A stretch of DNA of 64,000 nucleotides from Gautieria morchelliformis (Eukaryota > Basidiomycota > Agaricomycetes > Gomphales > Gomphaceae). Made by a program: the position numbers and the translations under genes. Location of the stretch: contig WHVA01000589.1 in the NCBI GenBank assembly GCA_015179125.1, positions 1 through 64,000 on the forward strand. The letters run 5' to 3'. This document shows, in pieces, positions 6,960 to 25,052 of the stretch. Within the stretch, counting starts at the first letter, position 1. Each line of letters begins with the position of its first letter. The notes under the pieces are model-generated. The model saw only the letters and a program-made list of their open reading frames with translations, made no database searches and was not told where the DNA came from.

Positions 6960-8305
6960 CTGTCTGATAATGCTGGTCAAAGCCACCTACATGGGGATAG
7001 CCACATCTATTATCAACAGAAGGAAGACACACACCATCAGCAAAATCACATTGTTTGAAGGGAAGGAGATATCAGATCAGGAAATCAGAAACCTTCCGCA
7101 ATCATGGAGGGCTATTTCACAGATGATCAGAATGATTACCAGAGTTCCAGACGAGATAGAAGAACATCTCGAGGCACATGAAGCTGATCTGAGTTCACTG
7201 GAATTATCAGATCAGATGACCACAGCATTTATTGCATGAGAGAAACCAAATCACCTCCCACAGAACAAACACCAGAGTAGCAACCAACCTACTGTACGTG
7301 CTAATGACATATCCCCACCAAACTCATCAAAAGCACCATTTGTATGTAACAACTGTGGGAGAAATGGTCATTCCATTGCTCGCTGCTATGCACCTGGTGG
7401 AGGAGCAGAGGGTCAGGCACCTTGGATGAAGAACAGGGAACAGAGTAACCTACCTTCTCAAAACCTGGAAACGCCTTCGCTACTAGAATAGCAACAACCC
7501 CCAGAGCAACATCTGATGCAGCACAGTGAGCCGAACAGACATCGACCAACCTCATCATGATGGCGACCATAGACACACCTGCATGACAAATCGAATGTAT
7601 CAACCATGTCATCATGAAGACAGAATCCGTACCTTCACCTTCTGATGACAGATTCAAATGGTTAATCGATTCAGCAGCGTCTAGTTGCATCTGGGGAACA
7701 AAGATTTTTTCCAGGAATTGTATGCTATACCACCGATCAAAATCGACATAGCCAATGGGAAGTCTTTCACCGCAGACCAATGAGGGACCATTTGAATCAG
7801 AATTGTCTCAGACCCTCACTGGGAACTTGAAGAAATACCCATAACTCTTGTCGACGTTATCTATGCCCCAAAGCTCAGGTGCAACCTACTCTCTGTAGGA
7901 AGAATGACCAACTCCAATGTTAGCGTACACTTTGGAAAATACTTCTCATGGTTAGTCCTTGATGGAAAGAGATTATCATATGGACCAAAGGAGAACAACC
8001 TCTACACTTACATTGCATTCCCCATTGAATCCAAAGACGAAGTTGCTGACCTCATGTCAGATCCCTCCAGACCTACTCTATGGCATCATAGACTAGGACA
8101 CACGAGTTATCACACCATCAAGAACATGAGAAAATTACAGACCACCAAGAATTTTCACCCAGGAGTCCATATCCAGTGTGGACATGGTCAGTTGTATGTT
8201 GGTGTATCAAGGGGGTCCAACTGGAACAGAGTTAAGGTCTTTCTTGAGGAGGGTGTGCAAACCAAAAACATTGTATATATAGATATATTGGTTAGAGCTC
8301 CTTGA
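6960..8305 (+). mobile_element. Ty1/copia remnant (gag to GAG-pre-integrase)
   Basis: These are fragments of a copia-type polyprotein in collinear order. A gag UBN2-like segment lies at 6970-7239. A CCHC zinc knuckle (CNNCGRNGHSIARC) lies near 7342-7383. A protease-like patch with IDSAAS is near 7667. A GAG-pre-integrase domain with the LWHHRLGH motif is near 8078-8102. Integrase core, RT and RNase H are not seen, so only the 5' third of the element remains. It is broken and truncated. No LTR was located. Confidence 0.7.
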
Positions 8306-8606
8306 ATTGTGACATTCACTTCCCTGATACAATTTACTTAGTATACTTTTTCTTGATGCAAGTTTTTATTGTCCCAATGCCTGTGAATTTACTGATGTGT
8401 TTGACCTAAACCCCCATGCGAAGTGCAGGTACCCACCTAGTACTTAATATCTTAGCTAATATACTTAACATCTAATATACTAGCTTAAACGCAAGAGCGG
8501 ATACAAATATCTTGAACATGACAATGAGTCTGTCATGAATCTTGGTGGCAATAAGGAGAAAGGAGTAGACCTTGGTGAGCAAGGTAATTCTGTAATCCTG
8601 TCTTTA
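8306..8606. other. Unassigned spacer before the DNA transposon block
   Basis: AT-rich sequence without a recognisable gene. A TA dinucleotide at 8605-8606 directly precedes the left terminus of the first Tc1/mariner-type element and may be a target-site duplication. Confidence 0.35.
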
Positions 8607-9030
8607 CAGCTGTTTCGGGTACATAGGGCGGAGTCTGAAATACATGCTGCCCGGTGCCGCTCGAAAATATCAAGCTGTATCTCCACAGCAATTGATGATT
8701 AAGGGTTGGTACTTTGTATATATTCTGTACTATGTAGTAGCTACCCTCTGATATACAAAACGTGGCTTACTATGAGTTATTGAATATTTGGATAATTTCA
8801 CTTATATGCATCATTATGCACTCAAATTCTTTCAGTAAGGTCTGTAACTTTCTCAGATTATAGTAATATACATGTATAAATGTTGGAAATAGAAAACAAT
8901 GATGTAATCTCCAGGTTATGGAAGGGGGAGGGGTGCATGTCTGTTTGCCTTCTCCCAGCCTTTTTAGCCTTCTACATAGCCAAAGCCTCAGGTTTAAGGA
9001 CTTAAATATAATATAACCTCTATATACTCT
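8607..9030 (+). repeat. Left inverted-repeat arm of element 1
   Basis: It starts CAGCTGTTTCGGGTAC after a TA. About 400 bp align, inverted, with 21620-22011, sharing for example GGTGCATGTCTGTTTGCC-type and CACTTATATGCATCAT-type blocks. It also aligns in direct orientation, more weakly after the first 60 bp, with 14424-14830. Confidence 0.7.
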
Positions 9031-9152
9031 AATTACAATGATGTGACACTATATTTCTTCATCTGCAAGTCTTGCCGGCATGATGTCATGACATCATGTG
9101 CAACCACGTCACATGACAGGCGTTACATGTTGTACACGTACTTGTGCCATCG

Positions 9153-10498
9153 ATGCCTAGATACATCCCAGAACACCTATGACAACGACAAACGTACTCA
9201 GAGGATCTACGAAAATGTGTTATATATCAGAGGTATACACGCGAAAAGAAGATTGCTGATATCACAGTGGATCTCAACATGTCGCAACACATCGTTGAAC
9301 ACGTTCTGCAACTATGGCGCACTACCGGTGAGGTTATGCCACCGGAACCCGGCAAGAAGGGTAAAAGGAGAAAAATCATGGATCCTGAGGAAATGCAGGT
9401 AAGCAAGCAGCAAACCTTGATGATACCAGATTACGCTGACTCTTATCTGGTTTCTCTCCTAGTTCCTAATTCGGCTTGTAGAACACTTCCCGGACCTCTA
9501 CCTCGATGAAATACAGGGTATCATGCAGCATCTATATGGAATAACTGTTGGAGTTAGCACTCTCTGGGATACAATGACAGAACTTGGGCTCACACGGAAA
9601 TGAGTATGTCCTTTTTTTTCTTGTGATTCTTCAACTTATTCACTCCCTCGTTAGTTGTTAAAGGTTGCTGCGGAGCGAAATGAAGACCTCCGACAGGGTT
9701 TCCGTTTCCGAATTGGTCACGAAAGCCCAAGCCGTCTTGTATTCATTGATGAGAGCTGGATCGATTGCCGCACCACATATCGCTTGAACGGATGGGCGCA
9801 GAAAGGGAAAAGAGCAAGATCAAAGGCTAGGTTTGTGCGTGGCACAGGGTATGTCTCCTTCCATATCTTACTTTCCTCTAATATTTACATCAGTGTAGGT
9901 ACTCCCTTCTACCCGCCCTCTGTGATGAGGGGATAATTTATTCCGATGTCCGCGAGGGATCATATGACGCCGACACCTTCCTGACATTCATCATGAACCT
10001 CATGCCATATCTGAACCCATGGCCCCAGCCGCGCAGTGTCTTGGTGGTGGACAACTGCGCCATTCACCATGGTCCTGAGGTTGCCGCAATTTGCCAAAAA
10101 CAGTAAGCAATCCTAACAAATTTCCCAAGTAATCTCAAAAATATCTGTTACGCAGTGGTGTGCACCTCTACTACTTACCGCCATACTCCCCCGACATGAT
10201 CCTGATTGAGGAGGCCTTTTCTTACCTGAAGGCATACCTTCACCGCCATGGTGCAGAATTTCGGCAAGCGGTAGATGGCAAAGATGAGATGGCTATTTTG
10301 TTATTCCTTCACACTGCTATGTCTTCAATATCAGCTGAACACTGTAAAGGTTGGATGACACATTCAAGGTATTTGCAAATGTACATGTCTGTCCTATCCC
10401 TATACCAGCAGCTAGTGTCAACACCAGTATACCAATCAGTTTGGTCAAATATTATGACTATGCTATTCCCACAGCTCTGCACTTTGTGGGTGATGTGA
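9153..10498 (+). pseudogene. DD34E (Tc1/mariner, DDE_3-type) transposase, copy 1
   Basis: This is a transposase of the IS630/Tc1/mariner superfamily, which cuts and joins the element ends at TA sites. The N-terminus has a helix-turn-helix (YTREKKIADI...NMSQHIVEHVLQLW) followed by a basic GKKGKRRK patch. Catalytic residues are the Asp of VFIDES, the Asp of VVDNCAIHH and the Glu of the LIEEAF segment; 34 residues separate the last two after splicing. Five exons fit: 9153-9398, 9463-9603, 9655-about 9848, about 9898-10107 and 10156-10498, and the introns sit where copy 2 has them. In-frame stops at 9180-9182 and at the end of exon 2 (9601-9603) mean it is probably inactive. The usual N-P before the final Glu reads I-L here. 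Confidence 0.8.
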
Positions 10499-10950
10499 GT
10501 GATGCAGGGGAAATAATGGAAGCCATGAATGAAGTGGAAGTGCAGGGATGTGGGTGATGCAGGGGAAATCATAGAAGGCATGAATGAAGCAGAAGTGCAG
10601 AGATGCGGGTGATGCGGGTGATGCGGGTGATGCGGGTGATGCGGGTGATGTGGGTGATGCGGGTGATGTGGGTGATGCGGGTGATGCGGGTGATGCGGGT
10701 GATGCGGGTGATGATGCGGGTAATGATGCGGGTGATGCGGGTTGATGCGGGTGATGCAGGTTGATGCAGGTGATGCGGGTGATCCGGGTGATGCGGGTGA
10801 TCCGGGTGATCCGGGTGATCCGGGTGATCTGGGTGATCTGGGTGATCCGGGTAATGATGCGGGTGATGCGGGTTGATGCGGGTGATGCAGGTTGATGCAG
10901 GTGATGCGGGTGATGATGCGGGTGATGCGGATGATGCAGGTGATGAAATA
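10497..10950 (+). repeat. 9-bp GGGTGATGC minisatellite array with higher-order repeat
   Basis: Tandem copies of GGGTGATGC and close variants (GGTTGATGC, GGGTGATCC, GGGTGATGT). A block of about 60 bp near 10720-10790 recurs almost exactly near 10857-10915, giving a higher-order period of about 137 bp. A flanking phrase containing atgaatgaagtggaagtgca-like sequence recurs near 10524, 10580 and 10959. Long open frames across the array (runs of His-Pro-His) follow from a repeat unit that is a multiple of 3 and are not evidence of a gene. Confidence 0.9.
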
Positions 10951-11032
10951 ATAGAAGCTATGAATGAAGTGGAAGTGCAGAGATGTGGGTGATGTGGGTG
11001 GTGCAGGGGAAATAAAAGCTTCTGTAACCCGC

Positions 11033-11280
11033 ATAACTGCATGCCATGTGTTCAAGGAAGGTGCAATTCATGGTGTTGGTTTTGGCATGAGAATCAGCAT
11101 CAATCCATGCACCAACTGTTATGGTCTGGGCATGAGGATGTGCCTCAGTAGCAGCTGTGGGTCTTTGGGTAATGTAGAGACTTCTGTGGCAGGTGAAGTT
11201 GACATGTGTTGCCAGGGAGCATGTTATCCTCTATCAAGTTGTTGTGAATTTTCTTTGAATGGTGATGCAGATGCAGGTGA
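11033..11280 (+). repeat. Direct repeat, copy A (about 250 bp)
   Basis: Starts near CATAACTGCATGCCATGTG and ends at TTTGAATGGTGATGCAG. It recurs with scattered differences at about 11607-11865. The two copies flank the inverted minisatellite, giving a unit of about 575 bp. Confidence 0.85.
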
Positions 11281-11299
11281 CAGAAGCTTTTATTTCCCT

Positions 11300-11606
11300 T
11301 GCACCACCCGCATCACCTGCATCACCCGCATCACCTGCATCACCCACATCACCCGCATCACCCGCATCACCCGCATCACCCGCATCACCCGCATCAACCC
11401 ATATCACCCGAATCAACCCGCATCACACGCATCACCCGCATCAACCCGCATCACCCGCATCAACCCGCATCACCTGCATCAATCTGCATCACCCATATCA
11501 ACCCACATCACACGCATCAGCCCGCATCAACCCGCACCTGGATCAACCCGCATCACTCACATCAACCTGCACCTGCATCAACCCGCATCACCCGCATCAT
11601 CACCCA
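11300..11606 (-). repeat. 9-bp minisatellite array in opposite orientation (GCATCACCC)
   Basis: Tandem copies of CATCACCCG, CATCAACCCG and CATCACCTG on the + strand, the complement of the GGGTGATGC array 350 bp upstream. The change of strand shows an inversion or an inverted copy of the same repeat family. Confidence 0.9.
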
Positions 11607-11870
11607 CATCACTGCATGCTATGTGTTCAAGGAAGTGTGCAGTGCAGTTCATGGTGTCAGTTTTGGCATGAGAATCAGCATCAATCCATAGGCTGACTGT
11701 CATGGTCTGGGCATGAGGATGTGCCTCAGTAGCAACTGTGAGTACATTGGGTAATGTAGAGACTTCTGTGGCAGGGGAAAGGTCGACATGTGTTGCCAGG
11801 GAGTGTGTTAGCCTCTGTCAAGTTGTTGTCAATAACGGCCTTTTCTTTGAATGGTGATGCAGGTGATGCA
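11607..11870 (+). repeat. Direct repeat, copy B (about 260 bp)
   Basis: Second copy of the segment at 11033-11280, carrying a small insertion near the CAATAACGGCC stretch. Both copies end with the same TTTGAATGGTGATGCAG phrase leading into minisatellite-like sequence. Confidence 0.85.
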
Positions 11871-11971
11871 GAAGTGCAGTGATGTGGGTGATGCACAGTA
11901 CTGTGTTGAATTTTGCCAATGGCACAAAATATGGATTGATATGAGTACCACTCCTAATTATCTATGCTGTT

Positions 11972-14235
11972 CTAGTGTTGTCTAGCCTTCTTGGACCCCT
12001 TCTCCCCACCTCCCACTCCAAAACCATACCTCTTGCCAGCCTCTTCAAGCTGCTCTATCAGAAACAATGCATCTACTACTTTGAGCTCAAAGGATATCTT
12101 CAGGGTCTCCAGAGACATCCATGCAATGCGTGTAAGGGTGATATCGAGGCATTCCTCAGCTTCAAATCTTCTGCGCAGAAAATCCCACCTGGTGTAATGA
12201 CTGAGCTCTTGCTTGCCCTTCAACTCCATGAGCCAGTCCTAAATTGTTGGTACAACCTGTGCATGAGTATCAGCATTACCAGCGGTACTCATTGTGGACG
12301 CCGGTGAATGAGATTGTTTTGCGGGTTGTGAGGCAGCACGAAATGCCTGAAACACTTCCGGTGGGAAGTTGATATTGATGGCAGGGGTGGGGGCGGGCTG
12401 TTGCAGGGGCTCAGTGCTAGCGTACCTCGTTCCACTGCAACGTGTGTGGTCAGATGCCGCCGGGTTCGCGCTGTAGTGAAAAAATCTGAAATACTCCACA
12501 TTTGGCGGCGTATTGAGATCAATGCCCGGTTTATGATCCATCTATTGACAAATAGGTGAGTATACACATGTTATGGAAAGAAAACACAAAACTATACCAA
12601 TTATAATACCCACACCAGCTCCCCTTCATTGCTGATGACCTTATGGTGCCCATTGAGGGCATGCGCCATGCAAATTGACCCGGTGTGTTGAGCGCAAGTC
12701 CAGACATCGCGCAGCTTCTCCAGCTGTGCTTTGTATCCGTCCAAGTTTGTGGCATTGAGGGCTCGCCTGTCCACGACTTCAGGTTTGACCGGTTCTTTCT
12801 GAGAAAGGAACCCGTTGATGAGTTCTTTCTTTTTAGTCTTCGGTTTACCCGTGGTGCCGGTCTGTGCTTTGACCGCCTCTTCTAAAAATTGAAAGAACTG
12901 TGAATTAGAGTATATTAGTTTGAATCAATGATGAGAAAGAAAGAAAAGCTGACCTTGGGGGGAAGAACGATGTCGATACAGGCTTCCGTGCCCCTCTTCG
13001 CCACCTGATTTACCCACTCGGCCTTCAAGGCCATCCAGTCATCCTCAGTCTCCAATGCAAAGAAGCGCTTTTCTGGGTCCTTGTAGAAATGAGTTATGAG
13101 GCCGATCCTTTTCTCTTCAGAGATCGCATACAGGCCGAGTACGAGTGGAGTGTCCCCTTCACCTCGTCAAGAGTGCTCATCGGATTGATGAGCTGCGTTC
13201 GATGAGCAATCACCCCAATTTGGTTACAGAACGGTATAAGAAATTTCATTTCTATGAAAAAATTAGTCAGTAAGCATAAAATAAGACAAGAAAAAAAGGA
13301 AACACAAAAGAAAGAAAAATACGCATGGGCAGGCAAAGGATCCTTTGCCATTGCATTGGCTTTGCTCACAGCCTTGCCCTTCTTCTTTGGAGCTGGAGGG
13401 GGAGATGGTGAGGGTTCAGTCATACCGTCACGATCATTGTCGCTGCTAGACGCTCCATCCTCATCCACATATTTGATATCATCATCACCGATGTCGGGTA
13501 TCTCAGCATATCCCAGACCATCGTTAGGAATGGGGACGTTGGGCTCATCCTCATTGCCCTCGGGCACCATGCTGAGGTGCATCTTGCCTGCGATATCAGT
13601 GGCCTCGCGCGTTTTCGTGGAAGTGGGTTCTTTGGCTGAGACAGTGGTACTGGATGCTCTGGATGTGGTGGAGAGAGTAGCGGTGGGGGCTTTAGGTTCG
13701 GCGTCGGCTCTGGATTTGGCCGTTGAACGCGGTTTCGACCCAGCCTCAGTGTGTTGGAATATCAATGTCATACAATGACACACGTCCACACACACCCACT
13801 GACATGTCAATACTTACTGTTCAAACCCCGCTTCGTCCCCTTTCCTCAGTCGTTCACGATCATCTGAACGTCTGAGGTAAGGACCATCTCATGCTCCTGC
13901 GTTCTACTTCCTTTACTCACCCATCATCACCTGTACTCTAGCTCACAGTAGTACAGGTAATAATACGAGTCATTCACGATCATCCGAACATCTGAGCTCA
14001 CAGTAGTACAGATCCAACACAGTGGACATGTTGATGGTGTTCCTCTTTGATGGAGGGGGTATCTTGATGGGGGGTATGCTTCCCTCACGCATTCGAATGG
14101 AGGGAGTACGGCTGTGCCTGCCTTCGATGATAAGGGCAGGGTCAAGTGTGTCACACTGACGAGTTTTGGGGTTGTTTTCAGGGGGTGGCTCCAAAGGAAT
14201 GAGAGCTTTAGCGTATTCCTCTTGATACCAGCCAT
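11972..14235 (-). pseudogene. Partner gene of Tc1/mariner-type element, copy 1 (unknown function)
   Basis: I do not recognise a named domain. The reading, in order: an N-terminal segment (LDPALIIEGRHSRTPSIRM) shared with copy 2; a Ser/Thr-rich stretch; an acidic stretch (IGDDDIKYVDEDG) and a basic KKKGKA patch; a conserved globular segment (ITHFYKDPEKRFFALETEDD, around 13030-13090); a Lys-rich linker; a Cys/His core (CAQHTGSICMAHALNGHHK, around 12620-12720); an IDLNTPP motif; and a C-terminus ending GSKKARQH. Several introns are implied. The frame changes near the N-terminus (about 14.19 kb) and near 13.13 kb, so this copy is decayed. It faces the transposase. From memory, similar C-x2-H-x-G-x-C proteins are abundant and uncharacterised in agaricomycetes; this is unverified. 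Confidence 0.6.
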
Positions 14236-14298
14236 AATGAAGTGATTAGAATGAAGCTTAGTGTGTGTTGAACGCAGCGATGGATGTCACTACGTGGC

Positions 14299-14422
14299 GC
14301 GTAGCGGTCACGTGACGGCGGTCGCACAACTGTCACGATATCATGCTGGCAAGACTTGCAGATGAAGCAAGGTACTGTCACATCAATATAATTAGGGTAT
14401 ATATAAAGGTTATATTATATTT
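14299..14422 (-). repeat. Inner right inverted arm of element 1
   Basis: Inverted match to about 9000-9115, sharing TTCATCTGCAAGTCTTGCC and the aatataatataacc stretch. The outer 400 bp that the left arm possesses is absent on this side. Confidence 0.7.
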
Positions 14423-14423
14423 A

Positions 14424-14830
14424 CAGCTGTTTCGGGTACACAAGGCGGAGTATGAAATTCATGCCGCGTGACGCCGCCTGCACAGATCGCACTGTAGCTC
14501 GTCAACCGTTGAAGAATAAGACATTAATTTTGGTAGATAGTTTTTCCTGTATATTATATACAATTTCATATAAAAATTGTAGCTTATTATGAAATATTGA
14601 ATTTTTGGAAACTTGAGCCTATATGCATCATTGTGCCCCAAATAGCATCAATCTGGGAGGTAGCAGGCTCAAATAAAGTAAGGGTGTGCATTTAGAAAGT
14701 AAGGCCTTGCATGTATAAAGTTCTTGAACACTAATAACTAGTGTATAAGGGAAGTGGGGGGCTGCATAGTTTCCCAGTCTTTTAGCTTTCTATAAAGCAA
14801 AAATTCTAATTGAGAGAGTGTACTACATGT
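14424..14830 (+). repeat. Left inverted-repeat arm of element 2
   Basis: The first 60 bp are almost identical, inverted, to the right arm (shared GGCGGAGTATGAAATTCATG). Further in, the match weakens, while the overall AT-rich layout and the TATGCATCATTGTGC block remain. Confidence 0.65.
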
Positions 14831-14955
14831 ACATGTAATAAAATATATAATAAGCAGACACAAGTTTATACTTGCCTTGACTTCCCATCTTGTGTGGACT
14901 ACACGCAACACATCACATGATTCACATGACATTACATATCTTGTACTTGTACCAT

Positions 14956-16180
14956 ATGCCGCGCTTTCTGCCTGAACACCAACAGCAGCGTCAAACCTAC
15001 TCTGAAGACCTTCGAAAATGAGTAATATATCAACGGTTCACGCGGGAGAAGAAGATCGACGAAATCGCGCTCGATCTGAACATGTCAAAACGTGTGGTCG
15101 AGCACATCCTCGATCTATGGCGTACTACTGGCGAGGTTATGTCGCAGGAACCTGGCAAGAAAGGCAAAAGGAGGAAGATCATGACTCAAGAGGAATTGGA
15201 GGCAAGTAACAGGTCTTTCTGCCATAGAATAAATGTACTCATAACTCCTTATCCTAGTTTCTTCTTCAACTTACAGAGGAGTTCCCCAACCTATATCTGG
15301 ATGAGATACAGGGCCTATTGCAGCGTCTGTATGGTGTGACGGTTGGAATTAGTACTATATGGGATCCAATGACAGGCCTCGGCCTCACGCGCAAAAAGGT
15401 ATGCCTCAATATATTCTGTTGCGTCATCCAATCTAATCGGCCTCTTCGTAGCTATCCAAGGTTGCTGCCGAGCGTAATGCAAACCTTCGAAGTCTATACT
15501 GTTTCAGGATTGGTCACGAGAGTCCCGAGCGTTTGGTATTTGTCGACGAGAGTCGAATTGATTGTCGCACCACATATCGCCTGAATGGATGGGCTGCAAA
15601 GGGAAAACGAGCTTCAGTAAAAGCTCGCTTCGTCCAAGGGACTGGGTAAGTACCTTCTCATTTGTTCATTTGCTGCTGACTTACGGATGATCTAGTTATT
15701 CAGTCCTTCCTGCCCTCAGCGCTGAGGGTATCATATATTCCGACGTGCGTGAAGGCGCCTACGATATGGACGCGTTTGTTCAGTTTATCCATGACCTGAT
15801 GCCCCATATGAACCCATGGCCCCTACCACCCAGCATGCTTGTGATGGACAATTGCGCCATTCATCATTCAGAAGAAGTGGCAGAACTTTGCCAGAAACAG
15901 TAATTTTTCTTCTCCTAGTCTTCTGTATATCTCAAGGGAGGCTGAATCTTATGACAGCGGTGTCCGGCTATACTACTTACCGCCTTATTCACCAGACTTC
16001 AACCCAATAGAGGAAGCATTTTCTTTCCTGAAAGCCCACCTCCAGCGCCATGGTTCAGACTTTCGTGCAGCGATTGATTCTAAGGATGAGGGGGCAATCT
16101 TGTTGTTCTTTCATAGTGCTCTTGCCACCATTACTCCAAAACACTGTGAAGGCTGGATGACCCATTCTAGGTATTTGTAG
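14956..16180 (+). pseudogene. DD34E (Tc1/mariner, DDE_3-type) transposase, copy 2
   Basis: Five exons fit: 14956-15201, 15258-15398, 15452-15645, 15696-15899 and 15958-16180, with GT-AG introns except intron 1, which reads GC-AG. The product starts MPRFLPEHQQQ, carries a helix-turn-helix (EIALDLNMSKRVVEHILDLW), a basic patch, the catalytic Asp of VFVDES, the second Asp of VMDNCAIHH and the final Glu of PDFNPIEEAF. D and E are separated by 34 residues, so DD34E. It ends GWMTHSRYL. One in-frame TGA at 15019-15021 (Cys in copy 1) interrupts the N-terminus; the rest is open. Of the two copies this one keeps the catalytic core best. Confidence 0.85.
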
Positions 16181-16516
16181 ATGCAAGCAGCCTTGTAGTA
16201 GCAGTGTAGCACTTCATCACAATTGTAACCTCATATACCCCTCTGAAAATTATGTTGCAAGGTTTTTATTAGCTAGTTAGTGTTGCCACGACAAGCTCAG
16301 AGTTGGGTTGAGCCTGTGTTTATTCAAGCTAGATGACTGGTTCAGTGTCACCAGATATTCAGGGCTCATGTGGCATGTTGGCTGACCAGTGTGGCCAGAC
16401 TATTCAGGGCCCATGCGGCACTGTCATGTTTGATGTGTAGTAACTTGGTTTGGGAAAGTAGGAAGTTATAGACCAGTAGTTCGATGGATGGAACCTTCAG
16501 GAGACTATTTGGTGTT
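16181..16516. other. Unassigned sequence after transposase copy 2
   Basis: No gene. It contains one of three copies of a phrase reading AGTGTGGCCAGACTATTCAG (near 16397); the other two lie near 18771 and 18888, so this is dispersed repeat material. Confidence 0.4.
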
Positions 16517-16648
16517 CTCCTCAGTGATAGTCAACATTAGTAATATAAGGGAAAGCTACCTATATAGTGTTCTACATGTTTTTTCAGTTAAATACTACGA
16601 AGATACACTATTAAACTCACCTCCTCAGTGATAGTCAACACTGAGGAG
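16517..16648. repeat. Paired 20-bp direct repeats, the second forming a hairpin
   Basis: CTCCTCAGTGATAGTCAACA occurs at 16517-16536 and 16621-16640. The second copy continues into CTGAGGAG, giving perfect 10-bp arms (16621-16630 and 16639-16648) around an 8-nt loop. The TG...CA-type ends suggest remains of small LTRs. A look-alike pair sits at 18267-18412. Confidence 0.6.
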
Positions 16649-16661
16649 GGAAGGGCATGCA

Positions 16662-17272
16662 TTGGCCTGTTTCACTCACATATATGAAGTTCTGGCACGC
16701 ATGTCAGGCAATGGTGTGAAGGTCAAAGATGACATGGCAAGGTACTACAACCAACACCAGGTTCCGGAGTACCAAATTGGAGACAAGGTATATTTGGACG
16801 CAAGTGATATCCGCACCACATGCCCTTCACAGAAGCTTGCCCACCACTACCTTGGGCCCTTCACAGTGATGCGGAGGGTCAGATGAAATGCGTACCTTCT
16901 CCGACTCCGAACTCCATGTCCCAGCTCCACCTGTCTTCAATGTAGTGAAGTTGCTCCCAGCACCAGGGGGTCCAATTCCAGGCTGGAAGTCTCATCCGCC
17001 ACCTCCACTGGAAATTGTAGATGGGGAAGAGCATTATGTGGTAGAACGGATCCTGGAGAGCCAGTTCGTGCAAGGACGATTCCAATTCCTCGTGAAATGG
17101 GAAGGATATGGGTACGAGGAAAATTCATGGGTCCCGGAGCAAGATGTCTCTGCCCCGGACAAACTCTGAGAGTTCTACAGGACACACCCTGGTGCCCCTC
17201 ATTGAATGCATTCGCTAGCCTTTCAATCCCTTGTGTCCCGTGCTTCGAGGATGCAGCACACTAGAGGTGGGG
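16662..17272 (+). mobile_element. Ty3/gypsy 3' fragment: integrase tail and chromodomain
   Basis: A fragment of pol from a chromodomain gypsy element: an integrase C-terminal segment (IGDKVYLDASDI, LAHHYLGPFTV) followed by a chromodomain (YVVERILESQF, FLVKWEGYGYEENSWVPEQD). The final residues before the LTR (AFQSLVSRASRMQHTRGG) recur in the fragment at 25905-25979. The rest of the element is missing. It lies inside Tc1/mariner-type element 2, so it arrived later than that element or during its decay. Confidence 0.8.
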
Positions 17273-17699
17273 TGATGTCAGGGAACACCCAGTTTTCCAG
17301 TTCCGACACCACACCAAATTCTGACTCCATTTCCAACTCCGCTTCCAGTTCCGCTTCAATCTCTGACTCCGCTTTCGGAAATGATTCCGCTTCTGGGAGA
17401 ACTTCCACATGTTCTGTTTGCCTTGCCAATTCCACTCCAATTTCTGACTTCCACTCTCGGAACAGTGTCGGAAGTCAAGCGACTCGTGTAGTATGTGGCA
17501 TCAAGGGTCGATCAAGGGTCAGGGACGTCAGGGGGATGCAGGGTTGATGGCGAGTGCCGAGTGTTGTCCCTGGCTGCAGACTAGTGTAGTATAATACGGG
17601 CTCACTGACATTGGGGGTCCTTAGACTTTTCTCTTTGGATTTCCCCTTGTCAATTCCGTGGTAGTGTGACCTCCACAGCCAGCTAGGGTTGCCCTTACA
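17273..17699 (+). repeat. Gypsy LTR, family A, copy 1
   Basis: Begins TGATGTCAGGG and ends CCCTTACA, directly after the pol tail. It aligns along its length with 25980-26352, sharing the TGTAGTATAATA and GGGGTCCTTAGACTTTT-type blocks. It holds a (TTCCGMYTC)-like Ser-codon-rich pyrimidine repeat near 17300-17410. Confidence 0.75.
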
Positions 17700-18266
17700 G
17701 GTGTGCAGTCAGGATACAAATAGATGAAATGCATATACAATAGAATAAAGGAGGAGTGCGAACATGAAACGATGGGGGGGAAAGAGGACAAAGGTACCTA
17801 TGTAAGAAAACACACTTTCAGACCTGCATACATGTTACCCTGCACGGACTCTTGGTCTGCTGGATCAATCTCACATGATCTACAGGTAGGACCTCCCGCG
17901 AATGCATCCCAGCCATAGGAACACCAAGAGGGGGTTGAATTGGGAAGGTGAAAGGGCCAGTGATGAACATCATGCCAGGTAAAGGATGTTGATCGTGTTT
18001 GATGGTGTGCCTATTGGTGAATGATGCGAGTAGCGAATGGTCATTTCGGTGAATTCAGCGAAGAGAGAACGGAGTGAACATAGAGGTAGAGGGATAAAAA
18101 GGGAAAAAGGGGGTAACTTGATATAAGAATAAATGGGTCATGACACACATATGCACCCAACATGATGTCACTTCAAGGATCACATATAAGAACGTACTGT
18201 AGAGGATAGGAATTATAGGCAGTAGGACTGGACTTGGTGCTCAAAAGAAGACTAGAAATTAATTCA
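17700..18266. other. Unassigned sequence inside element 2
   Basis: No recognisable gene. One open stretch on the minus strand (about 17.85-17.97 kb) looks protein-like but has no motif I can name. A cacatataagaac phrase near 18185 recurs near 18832. Confidence 0.35.
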
Positions 18267-18412
18267 CTCTCTCAGTGAATTTAGTTGTCACTGTTAATAT
18301 TATACATTACCTAGAAATTAATTCACTACAGGATTTCTAGGTCAACAAATCGAAGAGAAATAAGACTAATTTACTTGCCTCTCTCAGTGAATTTAGTTGT
18401 CACTGAGAGAGG
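18267..18412. repeat. Paired 27-bp direct repeats, the second forming a hairpin
   Basis: A 27-bp repeat beginning CTCTCTCAGTGAATTTAG occurs at 18267-18293 and 18379-18405. The second copy runs on into GAGAGAGG, giving 13-bp arms around a 9-nt loop (18378-18412). The architecture matches the pair at 16517-16648. Confidence 0.6.
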
Positions 18413-18913
18413 GGGGAAATGTGCCTCATGCGCATGTACTACTAGCCAGCGCTTTAGCGCCCGTGGGGCACTGGTGTGCCGTGCTAAGCGCCTGTAGAAC
18501 GTAGCACAGTAGTGAACAGCCTCAGCTCAAAAAGGAAACTTGTCCACAACCACCCACAAAGGGTCGGTTGGACAGAACATGAAAAGAAGTAGAAATACAG
18601 CTTCGAAAAATCAAAGAAAAAAATTTGACAAATCATAGAATGAATGTCAGCATGGTTTCAAGTCAAAATCAAAAGAAATCCGAATGGTGGAATCTATTTG
18701 GCTTGATTTTGGTGCAGGAGCATAAATGCACCCAACACGTACACATTTGATATTCTGACCCGAGGGGCCAGTGTGGCCAGACTATTCAGCCCGTGTGGCA
18801 TTGTCATGTTTGATGTCACTTCAAGGATCACATATAAGAACATACATATTTGACATTCTGACCTGAGGGGCCTGTTGGCCGATCAGTGTGGCCAGACTAT
18901 TCAGGGCTCATGT
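18413..18913. other. Unassigned repeat-rich sequence inside element 2
   Basis: No gene. It holds two copies of the GTGTGGCCAGACTATTCAG phrase (near 18772 and 18889) and a second cacatataagaac phrase. Confidence 0.4.
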
Positions 18914-19262
18914 CACTGGAGGCATATAAAATTTTTCTGGTCTGAAAAACTATTCAAAAACCTGTAAAGATATTCCAATTTTTTTTAGTGTTTCTAATGT
19001 AAAAAAACTTTGATAAAATTTTGTGCTTTTGTTAGAATTTGTTGAGCAAGAAAATTGTAAAAAAAATTAAAGTTTTTTGCAGGGTTTTTTATGTGTTTTT
19101 ATAAGTTTCTTTGTGAAAACACAAAGAAACTGATAAAAAACCCTGAAAAAAACTTTGAACTTTTTTACAATTTTCTTGCTCAACAAGCTCTAATAAAAAC
19201 ATAACATATTACAGTTTTTTGAACAGTTTTTCAGACAAGAAAAACTTTATATGCCTGCAGTG
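18914..19262. repeat. Fold-back element (MITE-like), family F1, full copy
   Basis: Almost the whole 349 bp is one long imperfect hairpin. It begins CACTGGAGGCATATAAA and ends with the complement of CACTGCAGGCATATAAA. The centre is GTTTCTTTGTG-aaaa-CACAAAGAAAC. There is no coding capacity. The right half of a second copy lies at 35833-35994. Confidence 0.85.
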
Positions 19263-19375
19263 TGGGGCATCATCATGTTTGCATCATCATGCTTTTGTTC
19301 CTCACTTCAGTGTTTCTTGCCATGAACTCAAGATGTAGATTTCCCTAGCACTTGTGACAAACTAACTATGGTAAT

Positions 19376-21441
19376 CTAGTGGTGTTTAGCCTTCTTGGCC
19401 CCCTTCTCCTGATCTCCAACCTGAAAGCCATACCTCTTACCTGCTACTCTGAGCTGGTCTGTGAGAAACAAAGCATCTCCCGCCTTCAGGCCATACAATG
19501 CCTTGAGCGACTCAACAGCGAGCCATGCGATGCCGGTGATGGGGGCCCGAGGCTCTCCTCCTCCGCAAATCTACCGTGCAGAAAATCGAACCTGGAATAT
19601 TGGAGGCCTTGAGCCTCTAACTCTGCGAGCCAAACACTGATAGTGGGAGTGGGAGCGTTCTGCAAGAGAGGGTTGGCCTCGACATCGGGACTTGCCACGC
19701 GATCGCTAGATGGCGGCGAGCGCGAACGCATTCTCTTTGGGGGTCGCGAGGAGGGGTGGAGGATCTGGATAAGCTCAGGGGGGAAGTTGATGTTGATAGG
19801 AGGAGGTGGGGGGATCTGCTGAGGTGCTGGGGGCTCACTGAAATACCGTGCTCCACCTCGACGCAAAGGAGGCTCAGGCATTGAATTTGCAATGCCAGCA
19901 TTCGCATGAAAGAACTTGAAGTACTCCACCTTCGGTGGGGTGTTCAGATCAATGCCCGGCACATTTTTCAACTAATAATAATAATTAGTAAAAGAATAAA
20001 AGAAGAAAAAAAAGAAAGAAAAAAAAGAAAGAAAAAAAGAAAAAAAAAAAGAAAAAAAAAATTCTCGCACCAGCTCGAGCACCTATACCAGCTCTCCTTC
20101 GAAGTTAAGCAGCTTGTGGTACCCATTAAGGGCATGTACTAAGCATATTGAACCTGGATGTTGTTTGCAAGACCAGGCGGCGAATAATTGCTTGAGTTGA
20201 GCCTGGTATGCCTCGGTCTTCGTGTCATCGAGGCCACGTTTGTGGAGGGGGTGTTCGGTTTGGTCGGGTGGTTTTGGCGTGAGGAAGGGGTTAACAAGCT
20301 CTTTCTTCTTTGCCTTTGGTTTACTTGCGGTGACGGTCTGAGCCCTGACCGCTTCCTCTAAAAACTGGAAAAACTATAAAATTGCAATTGATTAGTGCAA
20401 AAATGTAAAAGAAATAAAACTTACTTACCTTGGGCATGAGAACAATCTCAATGGTGGCTTCAGAACCCCTTTTTGCCACCTGACTGGCCCACTCATCCTT
20501 CAAAGTGATCCAATTGTCCTCGGTTTCCAGGGCGAAACACCGTTTGGCCGGATCCTTGTAGAAGTGGGTCACCAGACCCGCTCGCTTGTCCTCAGGTATG
20601 GCGTAGAGCCCTAGGACCTCGTGGATGGTAGTCTTCATGATGTGGAGGGTGCTTGTCGGCTTGAGAAAATGTGTGAGATTGACGATAACGCCGACCTGGT
20701 TACGAAAAGGGATGATAAATTTCATTTCTGTAGATAAAGTGTCAGGTAAACATCACAAATATATAATAAAACACTTACTATCAGGCATAGAAGCCACTGC
20801 CTTTGCTTTGGCCGCCGCTTTACCCTTCTTCTTGGGAGGCTCGACCGGAGAGGAGAGCGGTTCCACATCGCTGTTGGGATGATCGTCGCTGCTGGGGGAC
20901 TCGAAGTCTTCTGACAGGTCTGCGACCTCTTCCTCCTCGTCCTCTTCTCTCTCAGAGTCTCCAAACACATCGGCATGCCCAAGGTCATCCTCACTGACTA
21001 ACCCCAACCCTGGCTCTCGATCCCCCTTGTCCTCCTGGTCCCCCTGGTCCCCCTCACCTCCTCGGGAATTGTGATGAGAACGAGGCAGCCAAGGATAGCG
21101 TCAGCGGCACCGGTTTTCCTGGTTGCAGGGTCACCAGACTTGGACGGCCCTTTGGAGGCAGAGGTGGATGTCGGGGCAATAGAGGGAAGGGGGTCTTTGG
21201 CAACGGTGGTTTGGAGGTGGAACCATCATTGGTAGCCGGCACCTTGCTGCCTGCCTTCATCTTTGAGGCAGGAGGTCAAATTGGGGGGATCACACCAGCG
21301 TCACGCAGTCGAGCTGACGGCGTGCGACTACGCTTGCCATCGACGATGAGGGCAGGGTCAACCGAGTCCCGCTGGCGGGTTTTCAGCGTGTTTGAATCCC
21401 CAAGTAGCTCAGCTTTAGCTTTCTTTTTCTTTTTGCCAGCC
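19376..21441 (-). pseudogene. Partner gene of Tc1/mariner-type element, copy 2 (unknown function)
   Basis: Begins MAGKKKKKAKAELLG (likely nuclear, basic start), then VDPALIVDGKRSRTPSARL, matching copy 1. Next come a Pro/Ser-rich part, an acidic stretch (EREEDEEEEVADLSED, around 20.93 kb), a KKKGKA patch, a conserved segment (LVTHFYKDPAKRCFALETED, around 20.53-20.59 kb), a Lys-rich linker, the Cys/His core (CKQHPGSICLVHALNGYHK, around 20.12-20.19 kb), IDLNTPPKVEYFKFF and a C-terminus ending GAKKAKHH at 19376. At least four introns are implied; one contains a run of A/G (19.99-20.06 kb). A TGA at 21276-21278 (an in-frame sense codon in copy 1) and one frame change near 19.54 kb break it. No named domain is recognised. 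Confidence 0.65.
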
Positions 21442-21649
21442 ATGAGAGGGTTATAGATAAAGCAGAAGAGAGGAAGGCGTCGAGTGGTTGTGGTAGGAGG
21501 GAAGGCTGCTCGTCATGCGTGGCAGGAACGAGGCTGCAACGAGGCGCCAGGCAGTCATGTGACTCAGTCGCGCTACCCCGCGTCATAGCACAACGCGCTG
21601 CTATCATGCCAGGTATGCCGAAACTACAGGTATTATATTTTGTTATGTA

Positions 21650-22011
21650 TAAATATGTACTAGGACTCGATGTAGAAGGGTAAAAGGGCTGGGAGCAGGC
21701 AAACAGACATGCACATGATGCACCTCTCCCCCCTTCCACAGCCAGATGATTTCACCCTTGTTTTCTGTTTAAAACATTTGTATATGTATATTACTATAAT
21801 CTAATGATGCATATAAGTGAAATTATCCAAATATTAAATAAATCATAATAAGCCAAGATTTGTATATATAATGGTAGCTAATATATAGTACAGATTATAT
21901 ACAAAGTATAAACCCTTAATCTCCAATGGTTGTGGAGATACAGGTCGATTTTCGCAGGCGGCACCGGGCAGCATGAATTTCATACTCCGCCTTGTGTACC
22001 CGGCCACACTT
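21650..22011 (-). repeat. Right inverted-repeat arm of element 2
   Basis: Reads inward as AAGTGTGGCCGGGTAC, then GGCGGAGTATGAAATTCATG. Over about 380 bp it aligns, inverted, with 8607-9000 better than with the left arm of its own element. TA follows at 22012-22013. Confidence 0.75.
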
Positions 22012-22247: not shown

Positions 22248-22373
22248 CAGCCCCTTAAAGGGAACGGTCTTTCATTGTATTGTTTTTTCCCTTTCCATAA
22301 GCGCCAAGCGTACCTACATAAACCGATTACTCAACCGCGCCCTCGCCTTCCTTCCTCAATATTTGTTTTCCCT

Positions 22374-25052
22374 ATGCTTTCGGTGTTGCTCTCTTTCTTT
22401 TTGACGGCTGGAGCCCAGGGCGCTTTGGTATACCGAGACTGGGAGTTGACTGCTCAAGAGATATCGCCTGATGGCTTCAAACGCAGCGCTGAACTCGTGA
22501 ACGGCATGTTCCCAGGGCCGGTGTTGACCGCGAATAAGGGTGACCTAATTCAGGTCAATGTCAAGAATCGTCTCCTAGATCCAACTATGGTTCGGAGCAC
22601 TAGTATTGTGGGCGCCAACTATCTTCTATTCCCCACTTTTACCGACACTTATTTGCAGCATTGGCATGGGATTGTATGATTAGCTTATCTCAGCACATGG
22701 TACCTATTATAACATTGAGTCATGAAATCAGCTACAGCCTCGCAATGCCCAGTACGCATTCAATTGTTTCATAGTGGCCAACATATTCTCATGCCTCTTC
22801 CAGAAACGATGGCGCCTCCTTTGTGACACAATGCCCCATTGCCCAGAAGTAAGAACCAAGGAATGTCAACCTCAACTAATGACTGTTTCTGAAGTATATA
22901 ACCACTAGCCAGTCTTTTCTTTACACTCTTCTTCCCGAGCAGCAAACGGGGACTTATTGGTGCCTAGGTTGAATTTTATTCTACTTATCTCTCTAACATC
23001 GGCTCCAGGTACCATAGTCATCTGAAAACTCAGTATGTTGATGGAATCCGCGGCCCCCTCGTCATATGTACGTCCAGATGAATGGTATACTATATGCATT
23101 CGTAGAGACTTACTCGACCCACCAGATGATCCCGAAGATCCGCAGAGGCACCTATATGACGTGGATGATCCATCTACGTACGTGGGCTATGCGAACTAGC
23201 GTGAGCTAATGACATGAATCTATATGCTTGAACTTAGAATCGTGACTTTGGCCGACTGGTATCACGGTTCTGCCCTCAGGGCAACCAGCAAGTTTTCTCC
23301 CACGTTTCCGTGTTTGTAGTTCACTGAGTTCGGAAAGATTCCTTTTTTGCGGGAGGGCCAGAGCCGAACCCAGATTCTGGTCTCATCAACGGTGTTGGAC
23401 GGTTTACAGGTGGACCTGCGATCCCCTGGGCTAGGATCAACGTCACATATGGAAAGCGTTATCGGTTACGTCTCCTCGGTTTGTCCGCTGCAGGTATGGC
23501 TTGTATGAATTGTGAGGCGCGGGGGCCTGACCGATTCATAGGCGCTTTCGAGTTTTCAATTTTCAAACACTCAATGACTGTCATTGAGGCTGATGGTAAC
23601 GCTTATTTCTTCTAGTGAGAGGCGTCAATTAATTTCAGTGTCCACAATCGCAGGCATTGCCCATCAGCCCTACGTCGTGGACTCCATCCCAATTTTGCCT
23701 GGGCAGCGTTACAGTGTCATCGTGCGAGGTATTCATCGCATCTACACCCTTTCCTGTGTTGAATCCTTGAAATAGATTAATGCCAACCAAGCCATTGATA
23801 ACTACTGTGAGTTGCCGTTTGCTACTTCCCTGGCCTATACCCAACGTTCTGGAGATAGGGATCAGCGCGAAAATGTCAGACATTAATCCTGGTTGTAAGT
23901 GATGTGCTATTCTCATCCTCGCTCTCTGACTTGCTATGAAAAGTCAATGGAACGTCCCCTACTTTTGCGGTCCTCCATTATGATACGGCCCCAGATGCCG
24001 ACCCCACTACCCCACAACCTACTGGTCTCCCGGCGGGTGGCATAGAGTTCCAAGAGTTCAACCTCATAGTCTGTTTTGAAAGCGGCTTATATGTACCATG
24101 ACTCACTAAGATACTGGTCTTTTTTTCTAGCCCCTTGAGAACCCAGGTGCACCCGGTGGCGATCAGCCAGCTGATCAGGTCTTCAACCTTACCTTCGCCC
24201 CTGACCTGGTTGGTCATCCCAATGGGGATAGATGGGTAATTATATCATCGTCATTGGCTACGTGGTGCTTAGACGTTTGATTAAATTATTTAGGTCATCA
24301 ACGGCATTCAGTATAAATCACCTTCGGTACCTACATTGTTAAATATCCTGTCCTCCGGCGACTCTGAGTCTAGCATCATTTCTCTCTATTTATTTTCCGA
24401 CACTAACATAGGGACAGGCCCCGATATACGCCCTCTGAACATACTTTTACTCTGAAACCCAACGCCATTATTGAGGTAGTTCTCTTCATTCTCCTAGGCG
24501 GCCCGGGTCACCCCTTCCACTTGCAGTACGTGACGCCTGTTCTATCACCCTTATTTGGGCTGGTTTAAGATACTTGGCTCTTCAGCGGACACGCATTTGA
24601 CGTTATCCAGTCTTCCAGTGGCGGTCCCAACTTTATAAACCCTCCAAGACGCGACGTGGTTTCTACCAGCGGTTCCACTGACAAACCTGTACGCATCAGG
24701 TTTAGAACAGATAATCCTGGTGAGCCACACGAATACTTCATTCAGATCACTTGCTCACGATTTATGCTCAGGCCCTTGGATACTACACTGTCACATCGAG
24801 TGGCATTTCAGTAAGCAATCCCCCACGCTTTACAGGCCAGATAAGCAATCTTAATACGAACAATCTTTTTAGCCGCTGGTCTTGCGGTCGTCTTTGCTGA
24901 GGATCCACAGGGCAAGTGTGCCACTTGTTTGACGTGCACTCACTCATATGCCTTGTCCAGGCATTAAAAAGGGACCAAAGTCTGTTCATCCTAATGAACA
25001 ATGGGAGCAACTTTGCCAGATCTACAATAAGCTCGCTGCTGAGCTTCAATAA
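22374..25052 (+). CDS. Laccase (multicopper oxidase), about 21 exons
   Basis: Benzenediol:oxygen oxidoreductase, secreted, oxidising phenols while reducing O2 to water. It starts with a signal peptide ([16 protein letters not shown]). All four copper motifs are present after splicing: HWHGI (22659-22673), WYHSHL (across the intron at 22960-23008), HPFHLHGHAF (across an intron near 24.53-24.59 kb) and HCHIEWHF (24791-24814). The residue ten after the type-1 Cys is Leu, as in medium-potential laccases. Other landmarks: [49 protein letters not shown]; it ends KLAAELQ. About 20 introns of 45-65 nt fit; two flank microexons and the last reads GC-AG. I found no stop or frame loss, so it looks functional. 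A transposon ends 362 bp upstream. Confidence 0.9.

Follow-up and report, generated by a model that had tools for sequence, protein, structure and literature searches.

Tc1/mariner transposons are the textbook example of an element with a single gene, and the question raised by the locus described here is what a second gene does inside them. The window, a 64,000-nucleotide stretch of Gautieria morchelliformis DNA (contig WHVA01000589.1; G000:C658:1-64000), holds two diverged and decayed IS630/Tc1-type DD34E elements that lie next to each other in the same orientation (A, 8607 to about 14420; B, 14424 to about 22002), and in both a spliced transposase gene on the forward strand faces a spliced gene on the reverse strand, referred to here as the partner gene. 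A preliminary description of the window had reported this convergent arrangement and had proposed that the partner moves with the element. Both claims are borne out in the same genome (122 Mb in 1113 contigs): there is good support for the conclusion that the partner gene moves together with the element, because eight two-gene units, seven of them of the B type, are bounded by terminal inverted repeats (TIRs) and 111 of 196 partner loci form convergent pairs with a transposase. As to what the partner does, we give a roughly even chance to the reading that this is a multi-gene IS630/Tc1-type DD34E family whose partner would be a self-associating accessory protein organising the long TIRs and the transposase.

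The pairing was assessed by searching this genome with several queries. The core of the B partner found 86 stretches, whose identities fall into classes: S1 at about 91–100%, S2 (which includes the partner of A) mostly at 57–80%, S3 at 43–52%, and S4 and S5 at about 30%. A still more diverged partner, of subfamily S6 (L077/L078, beside another transposase clade), found 121 stretches, many of them in a clade whose elements have a FunK1-type kinase as well. Used for counting were all 86 B-core matches, 118 of the 121 S6 matches (three small fragments were left out), 104 of 119 kinase matches (second stretches of one kinase copy were left out) and 122 plus 150 transposase matches; in the transposase searches the best 150 of 454, 262 and 270 candidates were scored, and transposase counts are to be read as “at least”. 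Merging 204 partner stretches with ten listed S4 and S5 places yielded 196 partner loci, alongside 225 transposase loci; fragments are common among the copies, and some of the lone partners may be host genes. The preliminary description had suggested looking for partners within 10 kb of a DDE_3 transposase, and a transposase was detected within that distance of 122 of the 196 partner loci, the nearest one being convergent in 111, on the same strand in 9 and divergent in 2. An analytic estimate for uniform positions, made without shuffling, predicts about 7 pairs in any orientation and about 1.8 convergent ones. By identity bin, a convergent transposase lies within 10 kb of 6/7 S1, 22/40 S2, 13/23 S3, 7/13 S6 and 57/105 distant S6 loci, the bins being crude and short fragments possibly misbinned. 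Likewise, 7 of the 12 transposase loci that are at least 90% identical to the B exons have a partner within 10 kb. A partner is present in every clade examined except one, which carries fragments of a cytochrome P450 gene. An earlier notion, that the 56–60% transposase clades lack the partner, proved false: the S6 query found it in the FunK1 clade and on C1, C425, C271, C1004 and C164.

It is worth considering whether a host gene family has come to lie near transposons by chance or through the assembly. Such an association would fit the 74 of 196 partner loci for which no transposase was found within 10 kb, but it is difficult to square with the strong orientation bias, with a constant spacing (kinase and partner are 3.2–3.6 kb apart at 51 of the 59 loci where both occur) or with the enclosure of both genes by TIRs in eight elements, and we regard it as very improbable indeed.

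Those eight elements were found with the left 226 bp of B as the query, for which the best 40 of 117 candidates were scored. Seven S1 elements, namely B itself and those on C195, C308, C356, C403, C382 and C537, have the order left TIR, transposase, partner, right TIR, and an S2 element on C293 also carries both genes inside both TIRs. Compared with the left end of B, those of the remaining six S1 elements are 94–98% identical, whereas the right TIRs of all seven reach only 75–78%; left and right ends have therefore diverged as types. Some copies have lost the transposase, as on C146, where the partner lies between both TIRs with no transposase match. A separate observation concerns G000:C537:128815-143635, where an S1 element sits between an S5 partner and another transposase match in an apparent nesting of two-gene elements.

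The preliminary description had also placed both window elements entirely within long inverted repeats flanked by TA, and this needs some qualification. It holds for B except for the outermost 12 bp or so of the right TIR, where the match to the B-left query begins at base 13; A has no complete TIR pair, since it keeps the left TIR and the inner part of the right one, and the outer part of the latter (about 400 bp) is gone. Repeat analysis delimits the left TIR of A at 8616–8816 and the left and right TIRs of B at 14433–14632 and 21802–22002, the latter two being 76% identical over 200 bp. The left end of A (C8607) is preceded by TTA; that of B (C14424, also after TTA) falls where the right TIR of A breaks off. 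Probably, B inserted into the right TIR of A and sequence was lost afterwards; an empty site joining the left flank of A to the right flank of B was sought in the same genome, and none was found. The ends of the S1, S2, P450 and FunK1 clades have in common the sequence TTACA(G/C)C(T/C)(G/A)TTT, and all compared ends read TTACA with the exception of the right end of B and a truncated end of L014. The left ends of A and B, like the intact ends of their subfamilies, read TTA; an exact empty site with TA duplication is known only from the P450 sister clade. There, the flanks of one element (L075), joined minus one TA, are found intact at C1089:4529-4832 (304/304 bases, 100%), which demonstrates for this sister clade that insertion took place at TTAA and duplicated the TA.

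The transposase matches DDE_3 in Pfam (1.2e-28), the spacing from the second D to the E is 34 residues by hand count, the closest model is the bacterial IS630 model of NCBIfam (3.5e-43; 148 bits, where the cut-off is 100), and Sleeping Beauty is the sole sequence match in the PDB at E of 10 or less (E 0.046); it is therefore a eukaryotic IS630/Tc1-type DD34E enzyme. Matches to HTH_33 (2.5e-5; 24.2 bits, cut-off 25) and HTH_32 (2.9e-5; 24.9 bits, cut-off 33.7) both lie below the cut-off. In a tree of 19 transposases, drawn with midpoint rooting from copies with all three exons and including none from S5 or S6, subfamilies S1, S2, S3 and S4 stand apart from the FunK1 and P450 clades (support 100/99).

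In S1–S4 the partner protein has five recurring segments in constant order: an N-terminal box around TR-x-RD-x2-DP(A/S)-x-I/V-x2-G-(R/K)-x-x-R-x-PS, an acidic and serine-rich linker that includes a lysine-rich stretch, a core of 100 amino acids, a Cys/His cluster, and finally INFPPE or a similar motif ahead of a helical C-terminus. Three of these segments are recognised in S6 (acidic linker, core and C-terminus) and three in S5 (core, Cys/His cluster and C-terminus). The conserved segment order noted in the preliminary description is thus upheld even between subfamilies whose partners are about 30% identical or less. A Pfam scan of the N-terminal, core, middle and C-terminal segments gave nothing over the cut-off, with weak and incoherent matches (best E 0.033); in the segments scanned there was no match to a PB1 or SAM profile, no chromatin domain, and no recombinase or zinc-finger domain of the Tec/TBE type over the cut-off. 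Searching the PDB by sequence with profiles of both the core and the C-terminus likewise gave no credible match, and the pattern matches to the core among IMG/VR viral contigs and bacterial or archaeal genomes yielded no confirmed relative. One copy has a Helitron-helicase-like C-terminal sequence, recognised by eye, inserted in its last partner exon (L041:2450-3150).

Modelled with AlphaFold2 from an alignment of 19, the core adopts a beta-grasp fold with the topology strand-strand-helix-strand-strand-helix-strand (predicted local distance difference test, pLDDT, 85.9; predicted template modelling score, pTM, 0.77). In Foldseek, SUMO ranks first (E 3.3e-3), followed by three PB1 entries with ubiquitin alongside, all with E above 1e-3; the best match by template modelling (TM) score is the PB1 domain of PKC-iota (1wmh_A; TM 0.72 of target, probability 1.00, E 5.5e-3). 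The C-terminus, modelled from an alignment of 16, forms five helices (pLDDT 82.2, pTM 0.69; 67–82 in pLDDT over five models). Its best two matches are SAM domains, those of Scm (TM 0.68 of target, E 0.78) and p63 (TM 0.72 of target, E 1.1), and chains without a SAM domain (HigA, CadC, Rad51) are interspersed among the matches. These models suggest that the core is PB1-like and the C-terminus SAM-like, and we stop short of calling them members of those domain families. Folds of the PB1 and SAM types typically serve in self-association, and a partner with both folds is therefore likely to self-associate. A protein so composed, with a predicted basic N-terminal box, acidic linker, PB1-like core, Cys/His cluster and SAM-like C-terminus, would assemble into an oligomer that might hold the long TIRs and the transposase together, as an end-binding, synapsis or assembly factor, and such an assembly could help an element of at least 5 kb to move.

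Whatever its role, the partner appears to have been maintained. Alignments and rates were restricted to copies with a core free of stops and coverage of at least 75%. The mean ratio of nonsynonymous to synonymous divergence (dN/dS; Nei-Gojobori, core exon) between S2 subfamilies is 0.15, 0.27 and 0.21 at dS of 1.0, 0.72 and 0.65, and between S1 and S3 it is 0.26 at dS 1.8; most other comparisons are partly or wholly saturated. Within subfamilies the ratio is 0.19–0.56 at low dS, values that are biased downward because stop-bearing copies were left out. This supports purifying selection on the partner core between subfamilies, with function over the life of the lineages while single copies decay. 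The decay itself has a distinctive signature: in 14 S3 cores (L059-L072), C-to-T changes affect 60 of 560 CpG cells but just 3 of the 1652 C/G cells outside CpG, and 60 of the 93 differences are C>T or G>A at CpG, a bias pointing to methylation-driven decay of these copies. It invites the strongest alternative to an accessory of transposition, namely that the partner counters silencing by host cytosine methylation or heterochromatin and has no part in cutting or joining DNA. Plant transposons encode anti-silencing proteins, CpG-specific decay is what would be expected if the host methylates the copies, and Polycomb-group SAM domains (Scm, polyhomeotic) are among the close matches of the C-terminus; nonetheless, the scan of the segments revealed no chromatin domain and SAM and PB1 folds mediate interactions of many kinds, and we consider an anti-silencing role possible yet rather unlikely.

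The sister clades show what else such elements carry. In the FunK1 clade the arrangement is a three-gene one, with a FunK1-type kinase in a fixed place between transposase and partner (L044, L073, L074 and about 100 places in the genome); here the partner is known from search alignments alone. Among 104 kinase loci, a convergent transposase lies within 6 kb of 83, a co-oriented partner lies within 8 kb of 59, and both are present at 49. Two kinase frames of L044 match PF17667 (1.1e-8 and 1.6e-5). That the kinase replaces the partner was considered and rejected, as the kinase is an extra gene and the partner lies about 3.3 kb beyond it; the kinase is probably cargo added later. L074, in which TIRs of 728 bp (96%) surround transposase and kinase with no partner match between them, may be a deletion copy. 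In the P450 clade, three 4.7-kb copies are 99.2–99.7% identical, with TIRs of 311–321 bp; in L043, cytochrome P450 fragments face the transposase, and no partner was found in these elements. Of 13 P450 stretches in the genome, 8 have a convergent transposase as neighbour, and for the other 5 no transposase was found within 4 kb; four of the latter (C431, C720, C782, C572) are 83–90% identical to the P450 fragment and may be the host source genes.

Such acquisitions, the kinase in its fixed position and the P450 fragment, show that the family does take up genes, and this is what would lead one to view partner and kinase as passengers that serve the element or the host in some other way, for example by interfering with signalling, with no role in transposition. 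Against it, the partner occurs in each clade examined but the P450 clade, is under purifying selection and keeps its segment order, and unlike the P450 fragment, which has close relatives at four places where no transposase was found within 4 kb, it is tied to the element. We consider a passenger role improbable.

Returning to the partner as a self-associating accessory of TIRs and transposase, several observations weigh against this reading. The preliminary description had considered that partners, or transposases, might mostly be found alone; this is partly excluded, in that 111 of 196 partner loci are paired, but the 74 lone partner loci stand, and 115 of the 225 transposase loci lie outside convergent pairs (110 being used in pairs). 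Five of the 12 B-like transposase loci (C648, C223, C659, C193, C891) have no partner found within 10 kb, although on C648 the contig ends about 1.2 kb from the locus. The Foldseek E-values are weak for both partner domains, the C-terminal models spread over pLDDT 67–82, and DNA binding by the partner is guessed from its basic sequence alone. Furthermore, because P450 elements, in which no partner was found, moved recently, the partner is suggested to be dispensable in cis and could act in trans.

How does this family compare with known systems? Single-gene IS630-Tc1-mariner elements (Tc1, Sleeping Beauty, bacterial IS630) share with it the DD34E transposase, the TIRs and, in the P450 sister clade, the TA duplication; the family described here differs in having long TIRs, introns, a length of at least 5 kb and one or two extra genes facing the transposase, and with 111 convergent partner pairs and 49 three-gene loci it departs from the one-gene pattern of typical Tc1/mariner elements. 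PIF/Pong and MuDR/Mutyl resemble it in pairing a transposase with a second protein, but they belong to other transposase superfamilies. PB1 and SAM scaffold proteins have folds like those predicted for the partner core and C-terminus, whereas the partner lacks a Pfam match and is encoded by a transposon. Also comparable are the ciliate Tec and TBE elements, which have a DD34E transposase with further open reading frames and are described as ciliate-restricted, Tec having TIRs of about 700 bp and one open reading frame in the complement (PMC7325037). Their extra products, a site-specific recombinase in Tec and a zinc-finger protein plus a small open reading frame in TBE (PMC7325037), differ from those found here. 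In the parts of the open-licence PMC literature searched, including PMC5872316, PMC3203195, PMC9674265, PMC7325037, PMC10799480, PMC5014426 and PMC6416283, no fungal counterpart is described.

The coordinates of both window elements and of the P450-type copies are collected in Table 1. The transposase exons run from 9183 to 10375 in A and from about 14961 to 16177 in B. The apparent stop in the middle exon of the B partner comes after GELV, where L039 reads through.

Table 1. Features of elements A and B in the window, and positions of the P450-type elements elsewhere in the genome
Feature	Position	Strand	Basis
TTA bordering the left end of A (TA the likely target dinucleotide)	8604..8606	.	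sequence
Left TIR of A, outer and inner parts	8607..9093	+	repeats; alignment to L039 and L040 ends
Spliced DD34E (DDE_3) transposase of A, decayed, with a TGA in frame at 9601-9603	9183..10378	+	
Spliced partner gene of A (subfamily S2), its core divided over two frames	11972..14235	-	
Right TIR of A, inner part only	14331..14420	-	14331-14403 pairs with 9021-9093 at 86%
Left TIR of B	14424..14646	+	repeats; end comparison
Transposase of B, spliced, DD34E, in-frame TGA at 15018-15020	~14961..16180	+	
Spliced partner gene of B (subfamily S1), exon 1 with an in-frame TGA, middle exon with an apparent stop	19377..21443	-	
C-terminal exon of B partner, INFPPE motif and SAM-like helical domain (predicted)	19377..19971	-	modelled on L039/L012 copy
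Middle exon of B partner, Cys/His cluster (C-x2-H-x4-C)	20083..20373	-	
Core exon of B partner, predicted PB1/ubiquitin-like beta-grasp	20429..20728	-	structure model
Right TIR of B, without the outermost ~12 bp	21729..22002	-	repeats; end comparison
Near-identical Tc1-type elements with P450 fragments	L043:655-5379, L075:453-5168, L076:613-5338		

Several other features lie in or near the two elements. Between the two genes of A (10485-11621), a 9-bp unit (GGGTGATGC and its complement) is repeated in large inverted arrays, and similar arrays occur at L040:3330-4279. Inside B, a 95-bp inverted repeat at 19014-19211 (82% complementary, 8-bp gap) resembles a foldback element or a miniature inverted-repeat transposable element. 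A Copia-like fragment, recognised by eye, precedes A at 7796-8305, and a multicopper oxidase gene, laccase-like by eye, occupies 22248-23615, starting about 300 bp past B.

An old and large lineage whose elements have several genes, one of them for a conserved accessory protein, would provide a case of a transposon-encoded assembly or anti-silencing factor in Tc1/mariner. FunK1 kinases are expanded in mushrooms, and the kinase-bearing branch offers a concrete route for multiplying a fungal kinase family; it also means that some of the FunK1 genes tallied in such genomes may belong to transposons. One can imagine, as a tentative and on balance doubtful extension, an ancestrally two-gene fungal IS630/Tc1-type lineage in which a polymerising PB1-Cys/His-SAM protein acts on long TIRs and whose FunK1 branch multiplied the kinase, so that part of the mushroom FunK1 expansion would be transposon-borne.

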